Shown piece after piece: positions 2,647 to 17,262 of a stretch of 17,262 nucleotides of DNA. The stretch lies in the NCBI GenBank assembly GCA_025349905.2, contig MU624921.1:1-17262 (forward strand), given 5' to 3'. Source of the DNA: Blastocladiella britannica (lineage: Eukaryota; Blastocladiomycota; Blastocladiomycetes; Blastocladiales; Blastocladiaceae). Every line of letters begins with the position of its first letter. Positions within the stretch are counted from its first letter, which is position 1. The notes under the pieces are model-generated. The model was given only the letters and a program-made list of their open reading frames with translations. It was not told the origin of the DNA and searched no databases. A program made the translations under genes and the position numbers.

Positions 2647-5600
2647 ATGCGCACCCCTTCCACGCCTCCCCGTATTAGGATTGCGCCTCCCAACCAGACA
2701 CCCGACGACATGACCTCGCTGCGCGCCATGATCGCGGTCTCGGATCATACCGTGGTCGGATCGGACGGAGCCATCAGCGCCTCGTCAAAGTTACTTCAAC
2801 AACAGCAGCAGCAGCAACAACAACAGCAGCAGCAGCAACAACAACAGCAGCAGCAGCAACGATCGAGTGCGGCGGCGGCGGCCGCGGTGCTGCGCGTTTC
2901 GCGGCTCGAGAAGTCCCTGTTCAACGTCACGTACTTGGCGTGCCGCGACAACGACGTTTCGCCGCGGGTGGCGTGGATCCTGACGGTACGTTGCTTATAC
3001 ACGATGTAAATTTTATTTATTTGATCATTTTTGGACATAGGCAATCGAAGATCTGCTATGGTTGTCGTTTGCATTCAACAGCCGCCTGATCTCGGACCTG
3101 CCGCTGCCGCTGGCATTTGTCACCGAGCCGGTCCGCGCGTTCATGAGCTACCAGGGATTCGTGGCCATCAATGTGATCGGTGCGTATAGGTGCGATCTTT
3201 TGTTTTTTGCTAGTTGGGAAAAATCAACAACAAACCAAAATATTATGAACAAAAGCACTCCTTCTCGTATTTTCGGCGGTCTTCATGATCGCCACCGCCG
3301 GGTTCATGCTGCACATGCAAGCCAAGGTGCCGATCAGCATGCTGCGGGTCATGCGCTGGACCATCACGTTGCTGCTCACCAGTTTGTCGATCCCAGTCGC
3401 GTCGGTGATGGTCGAGGGACTCAACTGCAATGCTCAAGGGAACCTGGTCGATTTCGCCGTGTCGTGCACGTCCGCGCAGCACTTGCCGCTGCTGATCCTT
3501 AATGTTGTCGGGATGGTCATTTATGTGCCGTTCCTGTTGATTGGGGCTCTTGTGGTATGCCATTTCATTGTCTCATTCCTCCAATCCAATTCACCAATGA
3601 AAAGTGAAAAAAAAATATAGTTTATCGAGACATGCCCGACCTCCACCAGCCCCGTTGCACGCGCACACGGCCGGATCGACATGCTTGCCGTCTCCCTCCG
3701 TCTCCTGTTTGTCGTATTCGAGGCCTTCTCGCGCAACATGATGGACCCAACCGTATGGTGGCTGTACATGGCGACGGTGGCCCTAGGTTTGGCATACCAG
3801 ACCTACAAGTACGTGACGATGTTGCCGTACTACAACACAGTGACCAACCAGCTGCGCGCGGGGTTCACCGCCGCCGCCACCGCCGCCATGGCCGCGTGCC
3901 TGGTGATCTCGGTGATTTTCAACGGCCCACAGGTGTTGGTAGATACCAATGGGTCCCGTGGAGTGTGGGTGGCGCTACTTCCGGCCTCCGCGGTTGGGTT
4001 CGCGGTCGGCGTGGCGCTGGTGCGGTGGTCTACCGCTAGTATCGTCGAGCACGTGGTAACCATGTGGCACCGCGCGGCGAAAACCGAGTCGTCAATCACC
4101 GACGTGTCGGTTGGGGCGACGCCGTCGATGGGGTTCAGCGCCGCCATCTCCTGTGCCGAAAATAGTGTGGGTGGTGGCGAGACGACAATGCAAGGGTCCG
4201 CCCACGAGTCGATGAGGTCGGCGTCGCTGCCGATTGCCGCGATCCGGATCGGCGGCACGCTCCCGTCCTTGGCAGGTGCTGGGGAGGTCTCGCGCATGGC
4301 TGCGGCGCTTCCGCCGACCGCCGTCACCGTTAACGGGCTGATGGACGCGCCGGCATCGCCGTTCTCGAACCGCCGCCACTCGGGATCGGCCAGCTCGGTC
4401 CGCCGGGTTTCCACCAATTCCGTCTCCAACAGCCCCGGAGGGTCGTCGCCCACTCGTCCGCTCCTGTACGACCGACCTGGCAGTATTTCTCCGGCAGGAT
4501 CGAACACCGGTATCGCCGAAGGTGCGGCGGCATCGTCGTTGCACCACATCATCACTTTACGCCGTGGACCCAGCGCCGACGTCCTGGCGACCGTCCGGGA
4601 AAAGCCCAAACCCAAAGTGACCCAAGTGTTTGCGTCATCGGCGCAGGTCGAGATTTCGGTGCGGTTCATTCGCGACAACCCGGGCCCGAAACAAACCGCT
4701 CTGGGCCTCGACTTGCTTGAGCGCGGTCTGGCCGATTTCCCAACCGACCCGCTGGTTCTACTGCTGGCCGTAACTTACCTGTCGGCGTACTATGGTGCCG
4801 ACGGCGTTCGTGCCGCCGACACGTTGATGGCGCGTCTCGGGTCGCTGGCGCGGTCGGCGTTGCCGCTGGATATCAAGTTTCTAGCATTTGCTCGTGAACG
4901 CGCCGCCCGCGACATGGGCGCGCACGTTTTGGACCGCGCGGCCCTCGATGCACTGGAACGCGATATGCGCACGCACCACTTGCGCGCGCTGTACTTGGTG
5001 CGCGACGTCTGGGAGCTCGTGCGCACGTCCGCAATGCCCGAGCAGGTGGCGGCGGCGGTCGGCCGGCTCGCGGTGCATGCGAGTGGGGCCGGCGCGACGT
5101 ATGCCAAGTTGCTGGAACGCAATCCGCGCGACAAGAACTTGTTGCGGTCGTACGCGCAGTTCTTGGCGTTCATTGACGCCGACGCGTACAAGGCCGCGCA
5201 GGTGCTTGAAGAAGCCGAGAACGGTACACCATATTACTTAACTGACCGTGGCGAAGCTCCCGCATTCTCAGCAATTTTCAGTGAATCATAGTGGAGTACT
5301 CGGAGTCTCGCGCAACCCACCAGGGCGCGAGGCCGCCGTCGATCATGGAGTCGCGTGCCGACTCGGAGGACGACATGATTGTCCACCGCGCTGCCCCCGA
5401 ACTTGTTTCGTCCATCTCCAACCACGACAAGGAAAAGGAGAACATGTCGCCCTCAGAGGATGGTATGCGGGTCGCGAATTACATACTTCTTTGTCTATTT
5501 TCTCACTCCAAAAACAAATCATATTTGATAGACCTCGAGGCGGCTGCCGGAAGCAAGGCCCTCGCAACCGCGGCGGCGGGGAACAGCAAGATTGCATTTT

Positions 5601-13650: not shown

Positions 13651-15498
13651 TCATTTTCCAATACAGAAGTCGCCTGTCCATGTGGGAGGGCACGAGGTTG
13701 GTCAGTAGTCAAATCAGCGCAAAGCGAAAGGTGTGAAACGAACCAAAGACAACGTCCAACACGTCCTCGACGTCCACGCGGCCCGTGATCCGGCCCATAC
13801 TCTGCGCGGCGCGCCGCAGCTCCTCGGCAGCAATCACCAGATCATGCTCCGCCGCCGCCACGCATGCGTCCAACGCCGCCACGCACTCGGCCAAGTGCGC
13901 GCGGTGCCGCGCATTGGTCACCACCATTCCGGTTGCGCTTTCCGAGTTGGCCAGCCCGGCGCCGTACGTGTCGCGCAACACAGTGGCCAGCGTCGCGTCC
14001 AGGTCCGCCAGTCCCGTCCCAGTGGCCATCGATACCATGACCATGGGCACACCTTTGGCGGCGTCCGTGATCTCGGCTTTAGCGCACTCAATGAAATGAG
14101 AGTCGACGCAATCGGTCTTGTTGAGCACTACCAGTCCCGTCGACGCTGGAAACGGTGCCGCCAACGCAATTTGGTCCGCCAACGGGCTCGCTGCCAAGTC
14201 CACGACCCAGATCCTCAAATCGGACTCGTTGGCAAGTCGGTTCCTCGCCAAAGCGACGCCCGCTCGTTCGACCGCATCGTCCGTATCAGTGCGGAGCCCT
14301 GCCGTATCCCCGAGCAGCACCGGGTACCCAGCGACATCCACACGCGCCTCCACCACATCGCGGGTGGTTCCAGGGGTCGCAGCCACCAGTGCCACGTGCC
14401 GGCGGGCCAAGTGGTTGATGAGCGACGACTTGCCCGCATTGGCCACGCCAAACAATGTAGTGCGAATGCCCGACCGCACGATTTCGCCGCGCTGGGCGGT
14501 GGCCAGGTGAGCAGCGATGGACGAGGAGAGGGAGGAAATTCGGGCGCTGGTGCGTTGCCACTGACCCGAGTCGAACTGCTCGTCTTCGCCAAAATCGAGC
14601 TGGGCTTCGGCGTGGCCCATGCAGGTCACGATTTCGCGGCGCCAGGACTCGATTTGGGTGCTAAAGTGGCCCTATATATATTTGGTGAATGAGACTGGAT
14701 GCACACCACCTTAGATCAAGGAGCGTAACATACAGATGCCTGCTGCGACGCCAGCTGCCGCTGGACCTCGGTCTCGGCGTTGATCAGGTCCTTGAGCCCT
14801 TCCACTTCGGCCAGATCGAGTTTCCCATTGGCCAGGGCACTATCAACCGGAGTGAGTCTGGACGAGTACAAAGGACATATATACCGGCATACCACCATAC
14901 CGCATGGCAAACTCGCCCCGCTCGGCCATTCGGAACAACGCAGACCCCCCTTTCTCCTCCGATCGACTGTGATTATTACATGCGGCCACTCCCTGTAGCA
15001 CCGCCGCCACTACCGCAGTCCCGCCATGTACGTGCAATTCGACCGTGTCCTCGCCCGTAAATGACTTGGGTCCTGGGAACCATGCGGCAAGCGCACGGTC
15101 GTCGAGCGAAATACGCGTCACTGGGTGCTCCAAGGCCACTAGCGCCAGGGTTCGGGGCCGGGGTAAACGTTTGCGGGTGCGGTCGAGGGTCATGAGCGCC
15201 TAGGAAAATTTTAACGCGTTACGAAGGCGGGATCAGTGTATGAGCGTGAATTTACCTTGGCGGCATTGGGACCTGAAATGCGAATCACGGCCACGCCAGC
15301 ACGACCTGGAGCGGTTGCAGGCGCATAAATTGTGTCGGTGGACGCGCGTGCGGTGCCGTGGTACGGCGCAATGCATGTTCGTTGATGTGACGACCATGTT
15401 ATTGCCGAGGGCAGCAGCGCGGGACGTGCGCTCATGCCATGACCAGACCAGACCAGGGTATTCCGGGAGAAGTGCAGGCCAAGAACAAGACGCGACAT
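13651..15498 (-). CDS. MSS1: Mitochondrial tRNA modification GTPase MnmE/MSS1/GTPBP3
   Basis: Five exons (15498-15256, 15199-14901, 14839-14734, 14671-13744, 13673-13651) give 532 aa, about the size of yeast Mss1. The N-terminal folate-binding domain shows [40 protein letters not shown] and [20 protein letters not shown]. The inserted GTPase domain has GVANAGKS (291-298), PGTTRD (316-321), DTAG (338-341) and NKTD (400-403). The final CXGK motif, FCIGK, is encoded by a separate 23-nt exon reached through a GTTCGT donor. With its MnmG/Mto1 partner this enzyme modifies wobble U34 of mitochondrial tRNAs, and Cys529 of the CXGK motif is essential in homologues. The N-terminus is Ser/Arg/Ala-rich and suits a mitochondrial targeting peptide. 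The ATG at 15435 is a shorter in-frame alternative and may be preferred, since only 34 bp (mostly a homopolymer) separate 15498 from the upstream stop. Confidence 0.93.
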
Positions 15499-16771: not shown

Positions 16772-16787
16772 TTGATCCTCGGATCAA
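16772..16787. repeat. Inverted repeat TTGATCC-TC-GGATCAA
   Basis: The 7-bp arms (16772-16778 and 16781-16787) are exact reverse complements around a 2-nt centre. The repeat lies 26 bp upstream of the LYC1-like ATG, in the gap after the cysteine-rich peptide gene. It looks like a dimeric operator site, but no regulator is known. Confidence 0.5.
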
Positions 16788-16919
16788 TCCATCAAAGGAA
16801 GAGTCGCTGGGGCCCATGTCTCTTCAGTCAAGAGCAGATCAGTTATGCATATTTGCTCCCAATTCGTGCCGAAAAAGAGAATGCATTTTTCACAAGTTGG
16901 AAGGACTAGGAGATCATAT

Positions 16920-17161
16920 TTAGCACAACGCGCACTCGTTGCCGCAGAAGCTCGCGCAGTCGTTTCCACCGCTGCGGCGGCAGTCGCGCATGCATGCGCT
17001 GGTGCACGCCTGGGTGTTGCAGTCTGGTTTTCATGTGTTTCAGTCCAGCTCACATTATTGACGTTTAGCAGGAGTGAAGCAGACGTACCACCATCTCCCA
17101 TATCGGGCGAGGCGACGGCAATGGCAACGAGGGCAAACAGAGCGAGGATCGAGGTGCGCAT
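16920..17161 (-). CDS. Small secreted cysteine-rich peptide, two exons, 58 aa, eight Cys
   Basis: Exon 1 (17161-17089) encodes a signal peptide, MRTSILALFALVAIAVAS, then an acidic PDMGDG. A 65-nt intron (17088-17024; donor GTACGT, acceptor AACCAG) joins in frame to exon 2 (17023-16920), which ends in TAA. The mature part, about 40 residues, has eight cysteines at 26, 31, 35, 39, 47, 51, 55 and 58, with spacing CX4CX3CX3CX7CX3CX3CX2C and Cys as the last residue. The two CX3CX3C blocks are separated by a loop containing RRSGGND, which suggests two short helices held by disulfides. Reading through the intron gives a different 125-aa frame with far fewer cysteines, so the pattern is visible only after splicing. 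I do not recognise the family. Small secreted disulfide-rich peptides may be antimicrobial, effector, adhesive or signalling molecules; nothing here chooses between them. Confidence 0.7.
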
Positions 17162-17242
17162 GTTGGTTGGTTGGGGAAATGTGAGAGTGAGTACACCTGC
17201 AATGATGAGGGTGGATCAAGGGAAAACGTGCCCAATTTGAAG

Positions 17243-17262
17243 TTTTTTTTTTTTTTTTTTTT
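17243..17262. repeat. Run of 20 T at the window edge
   Basis: The window ends in a homopolymer of at least 20 T about 80 bp upstream of the cysteine-rich peptide start. It may be a promoter poly(dA:dT) tract or mark a point where an assembly or window was cut. Confidence 0.6.

Follow-up and report, generated by a model that had tools for sequence, protein, structure and literature searches.

The window (the whole stretch of DNA analyzed, 17,262 nt) is the entire contig C379 (17,262 bases) of the Blastocladiella britannica assembly, which comprises 15.26 Mb in 624 contigs. Close to its end, the minus strand carries a small two-exon gene with the following features.

17162..17262, minus strand: upstream stretch to the contig end (101 bp), ending in a poly(A) run, with no TATAAAG
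17161-17089, minus strand: exon 1 (73 nt), with the start codon, the signal peptide, the first residues of the secreted part and the first base of a split codon
17111..17161, minus strand: signal peptide MRTSILALFALVAIAVA, residues 1-17 or 18, peak hydropathy 3.19 in 9-residue windows
17088-17024, minus strand: phase-1 GT-AG intron (65 nt, GTACGT...AACCAG), giving the same product as the public annotation
17023-16920, minus strand: exon 2 (104 nt including the TAA stop at 16920), with the eight-cysteine module
16923..17021, minus strand: cysteine framework C-4-C-3-C-3-C-7-C-3-C-3-C-2-C, residues 26-58, predicted helices 28-42 and 47-56

The spliced gene of 177 nt, starting with the ATG at 17161, encodes 58 amino acids, which begin with a hydrophobic stretch, continue with a short acidic spacer and then carry the eight cysteines, the last of which is the C-terminal residue. 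Signal-peptide cleavage presumably occurs after A17, according to the AXA rule. Read without splicing, the same start codon opens a 125-aa frame (16784-17161). All these elements (the in-frame splice over a 65-nt intron, the signal-peptide-like start, the spacing of the cysteines and the 125-aa frame that an intron-blind search would report) had been proposed by the sequence-only reading; they were reproduced here by recomputing the exons. Its description of the sequence is exact and its observation is confirmed, while its interpretation is partly supported. In particular, the peptide had been called unrecognised, but the nr database already holds BC828DRAFT_406804 (hypothetical protein of Blastocladiella britannica, a zoospore-forming blastoclad fungus of the Blastocladiomycota), identical to the product in 58 of 58 positions, and hence the gene has already been predicted publicly, without a name or a function.

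A relaxed version of the eight-cysteine framework is found a single time when the window is read in all six frames, whereas 300 dinucleotide-preserving shuffles yielded no instance; this control covers the cysteine exon (exon 2) alone, with splicing and the signal peptide outside it. The case against chance is firmer because 18 paralog models replicate the protein plan and the public annotation has the identical product. For the same reasons we give almost no credence to the spliced peptide being an artefact, with the locus encoding the unspliced 125-aa frame or nothing. The donor hexamer GTACGT is overrepresented in the window (17 occurrences on both strands against 6.08 expected), and a count of 17 was reached in none of 200 shuffles.

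One neighbor is ordinary: positions 13709-14629 (minus strand) encode an MnmE-type tRNA-modification GTPase with MnmE_helical and MMR_HSR1 domains. A frame at 2647-3009 (plus strand) carries a run of about 20 glutamines. The first 98 bases of contig C536 are 99% identical to window positions 16976-16879, which cover the last part of exon 2 and the sequence 3' of it, and the similarity stops there; either the gene is present twice or the assembly was interrupted at a repeat.

Protein searches of the same genome yielded 18 further single-module gene models and one two-module relative. The family size of at least 19 single-module genes is a lower bound. They form two subfamilies.

Subfamily A, 11 genes: C379 (window), C188a, C188b, C4a, C4b, C4c, C118a, C118b, C42, C622, C151
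Subfamily B, 8 genes: C242, C96, C319, C1a, C1b, C276a, C276b, C276c

The gene models show a multigene family with a common predicted plan, in which a signal-peptide exon is followed by a phase-1 intron and an eight-cysteine exon. The sequence-only reading had named loss of the exon 2 cysteines in relatives as evidence against itself; among the paralogs, all eight are kept in 19 of 19 models and, apart from M1, R2 and two signal-peptide alanines, nothing else in the alignment is invariant. The spacing is C-(4-6)-C-3-C-3-C-(7-8)-C-3-C-3-C-2-C in subfamily A and C-5-C-3-C-3-C-(5, once 7)-C-3-C-3-C-1-C in subfamily B. A single phase-1 intron, 55-75 nt in length (median 62), is present in each of the 19 chosen models, but since each model was picked from the listed splices for having the framework together with a complete signal peptide, the uniformity of phase and length is partly a product of selection. 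The predicted peptides are 58-72 residues long. Close groups of two or three account for 11 of the 19 genes (two C188 genes, two of the three C4 genes, two C118, two C1 and three C276 genes).

Of the six public models that the protein searches returned, five agree with ours: P0001, P0002, P0005 and P0006 are identical, and P0004 (C319) differs only in a 7-residue N-terminal extension. Our models of the four agreeing paralogs had been fixed before the comparison. The sixth public model, P0003 (BC828DRAFT_189603, C42:38801), starts with the family signal peptide and reads exon 2 in another frame, losing the module; judging from the sequence, it is probably a mis-spliced annotation with an alternative acceptor. 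The public record of P0002 gives 27,720 bases for its contig, against 16,864 for C188, on which this gene lies here; the analyzed assembly may have been split or trimmed differently.

Several members deviate from the common plan. C188a is a doubtful member, as its cysteine exon is reached only via the donor GTTCTG, used by no other model, and its spacer has three extra cysteines, two of them adjacent (left out of the spacing count); it may be a damaged copy or be spliced differently. The two-module relative, C505:594 to about 180 (minus strand), has, as we read it, the signal peptide and the first module in exon 1, without the intron that separates them in the 19 models, and the second module after what reads as a phase-1 intron of 66 nt, followed by a Thr-rich tail. 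This gene suggests that the eight-cysteine module is a unit open to duplication. In C118a and C118b, Lys-Arg stands two positions ahead of the first cysteine, where no other member has it, and we take it as a possible Kex2-type processing site.

The export tag and the mature part of the family diverge in very different ways. In subfamily A (10 genes, 45 pairs, C188a left out), pairwise identity averages 81% for the signal peptide, 24% for the spacer and 14% for the non-cysteine mature residues, with pN/pS of 0.21, 0.89 and 1.21, respectively. In subfamily B (8 genes, 28 pairs), the corresponding identities are 54%, 22% and 29%, and pN/pS are 0.45, 0.85 and 1.17. The mature pN/pS of about 1.2 is no proof of positive selection, since these comparisons are saturated (pS about 0.5). 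Among six single pairs compared in the non-cysteine mature part, pN exceeds pS in two (C276a/C276b and C4b/C4c), equals it in C188b/C622 and is lower in three (C118a/C118b, C276a/C276c and C276a/C1a), the closest pair being C276a/C276c with pN 0.10 and pS 0.18. The contrast between a fixed export tag and a free mature part is clear, and it is one known from defence and venom peptides. The net charge of the mature part ranges from -1 to +2.

The heptamer TATAAAG is present in 10 of the 19 upstream stretches (18 of 200 bp and the 101 bp of the window gene), while, when the letters of these stretches were shuffled 200 times, no 7-mer reached more than 7. Elsewhere its frequency is 0.04-0.09 per kb and strand, from three copies in the window and two in eight dropped loci totalling 23.9 kb (both strands counted). 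In the family it often reads GTATAAAGAG and lies about 65-95 bp before the start codon. This suggests that the expression of the family is shared and TATA-driven.

The AlphaFold2 model of the window gene, based on an alignment of five B. britannica proteins, has helices at residues 28-42 and 47-56, with overall pLDDT 69.2, pTM 0.46, and block means of 87, 85 and 81 over residues 31-58. The model of a subfamily B member is weaker (helices 38-48 and 57-62, overall pLDDT 62.2, pTM 0.36), and structure searches with the window-gene model gave weak matches. From these models, we infer a two-helix hairpin (helix-loop-helix). A profile of the mature part (21 modules) matches 10 PDB sequence entries at E 0.05-7.4, all non-significant; by our own count, we take at least 7 of the 10 to be cysteine-stapled helical hairpins (kappa-KTx 2.9 and 1.2, the Ara h 1 leader, L-2, EcAMP1, Tk-hefu-11 and Ole e 6). 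The full-length profile matches 14 entries (best E 0.11), among them several vicilin leader peptides and some matches to the signal peptide only. As CX3C spacing drives such matches, they point to a common scaffold and not to common descent.

Outside B. britannica, the protein searches brought up nothing related to the mature part, and no plant hairpinin was among the proteins returned by homology searches. None of seven proteins (the window gene and six others) reached the curated cut-offs of Pfam-A, and a scan of all 19 matched six families with one member each (best E 0.038). Two of the 19 members match NCBIfam TIGR04117 (Cys-Xaa-Xaa-Xaa repeat radical SAM target, best E 0.0017), which we judge to be a coincidence of the CX3 spacing with a bacterial family.

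The closest published motif is found in plants. PMC11591084 recently added a six-cysteine class, CX3CX3C-X4-20-CX3CX3C, to the alpha-hairpinins and reports 1069 peptides predicted from plant transcriptomes, a 7-residue loop in 13 of 1057 six-cysteine peptides and two further peptides with eight cysteines in another order. The inner six cysteines of the window gene (3,3,7,3,3) fit this core, as do those of all 19 models (loop of 5-8 residues). Thus the spacing, for which the sequence-only reading knew no family, is not wholly new, and the gene is one of at least 19 paralogs. The window gene stays within the limit of two cysteines outside the core given in that paper, having one 4 residues before the core, one 2 residues after it and no others; it also conforms to the rules stated there in having no CC beside the core and no X1CX3C directly after it. 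The family resembles the six-cysteine class in this fit, in size and in the predicted helix-loop-helix, while in the eight-cysteine alpha-hairpinins of the same paper both extra cysteines precede the core, unlike the family, where one stands on each side.

Other features set the family apart from plant alpha-hairpinins: it is fungal, its genes are single-module with an intron after the signal exon, and there is no significant sequence similarity. Both gene types described in PMC7191063 (five known genes) encode multi-module precursors, whereas the 19 models have one module each and only C505 has two. Because of this single-module plan and the lack of a significant sequence relation, the family is not filed as a member of the alpha-hairpinins, only as a probable user of the same scaffold, perhaps by convergence. 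The four-cysteine alpha-hairpinins and vicilin leader peptides, as presented in PMC7191063, share with it the CX3C-Xn-CX3C helical hairpin and precursors with a signal peptide, and differ in having four cysteines and multi-module plant precursors. Scorpion kappa-KTx (hefutoxin-like) peptides, described in the same text as cysteine-stapled helical hairpins, are the best sub-threshold PDB match of the mature profile (E 0.05). They have four cysteines and two disulfides against eight cysteines here, the listed chains being 25 and 28 residues long; they block potassium channels, and the profile E-values demonstrate no homology to the family. Ole e 6 (PDB 1SS3), a pollen allergen and thus a plant protein, unlike the fungal family, matches over the CX3C part without significance (E 1.1 and 7.4). 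According to PMC8638133, the Snakin/GASA domain starts with CX3CX3C-X8(9)-CX3C and follows a signal peptide, but it has 12 cysteines with a CC pair, against eight here. The string CX3CX3C also appears in PMC4863159, on minicollagen cysteine-rich domains. The cysteine arrays given for remipede venom (PMC5577568) and for aphids (PMC9604261) differ from that of the family.

The family is most likely a lineage-specific, fast-diverging set of secreted, disulfide-stapled helical hairpins that would act extracellularly. The peptide would enter the secretory pathway and lose its signal peptide after about residue 17; the two CX3CX3C copies would then lie on antiparallel helices, zipped by disulfides (probably C2-C7, C3-C6, C4-C5 and C1-C8), and the resulting helical hairpin, roughly 41 residues long, would be very stable. 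Because the family conserves its export tag and its cysteines but replaces the remaining residues, extracellular action on varied or changing targets is most likely. The first-choice role, by analogy with plant alpha-hairpinins, would be competition with, or defence against, other microbes of the habitat; the target itself is a guess and the least certain step. Taken as a whole, with the role in microbial competition or defence included, this explanation is the one we prefer, at a little short of an even chance. A point against it is that the mature peptides carry almost no net charge, in contrast to many antimicrobial peptides that act on membranes. More tentatively still, the hairpins could be an arsenal confined to one blastoclad fungus and used by it in microbe-microbe conflict or kin recognition, diversifying in the manner of cone-snail toxins or nodule peptides, whose pattern of a fixed export exon and a free-wheeling cysteine exon with a phase-1 intron between them would be similar.

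Among the other roles we rank signalling second, and structural or inhibitory ones behind it. As signals, the peptides would carry self/non-self or mating-type-like information among zoospores or thalli, with an own receptor for each paralog or allele. The conserved export part, the highly variable and near-neutral mature part and the large number of paralogs are consistent with this role, but we know of no peptide pheromone in Blastocladiomycota and consider it rather unlikely. Minicollagen cysteine-rich domains, which are parts of the short collagens of nematocyst capsules, cross-link through disulfides, and the peptides could likewise cross-link a wall or matrix, for instance in the resistant sporangium. 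The CX3C repeats, the two-module C505 with its Thr-rich tail and the TATA-bearing upstream regions agree with such a function; yet it predicts conserved non-cysteine surfaces, while identity there is 14% in subfamily A, and the 19 single-module models contain no collagen-like or repeat part, which makes it unlikely.

Slightly less probable again is a secreted inhibitor of proteases or other enzymes that uses the helical hairpin as its scaffold. Beside the hairpin peptides in the sub-threshold PDB list there is a chymotrypsin inhibitor (E 0.18), but cysteine is the only residue invariant in the mature part across the 19 members. Finally, eight cysteines within 33 residues in CX3C steps could bind metal through thiolates without disulfides, e.g. 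in extracellular handling of copper or zinc. This we regard as very improbable: the secretory route favors disulfides, the even number and symmetric spacing of the cysteines fit a stapled hairpin, and none of the six weak matches that the Pfam scan of all 19 members listed is a metallothionein.

Returning to the preferred explanation of secreted stapled hairpins, the family would be a compact natural series with freely varying non-cysteine residues, suited to probing how much the scaffold tolerates. There are at least 19 spliced genes, yet among the public proteins returned at least five contain the eight-cysteine module and one more is read in a different frame; this gap indicates how easily such peptides are missed or mis-spliced in annotation. 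The literature searched says little about the peptides that early-diverging zoosporic fungi secrete. An unnamed JGI protein of 90 aa (P0007) has a family-like signal peptide and a different cysteine-containing mature part; it may be a further secreted peptide, from a related fungus.
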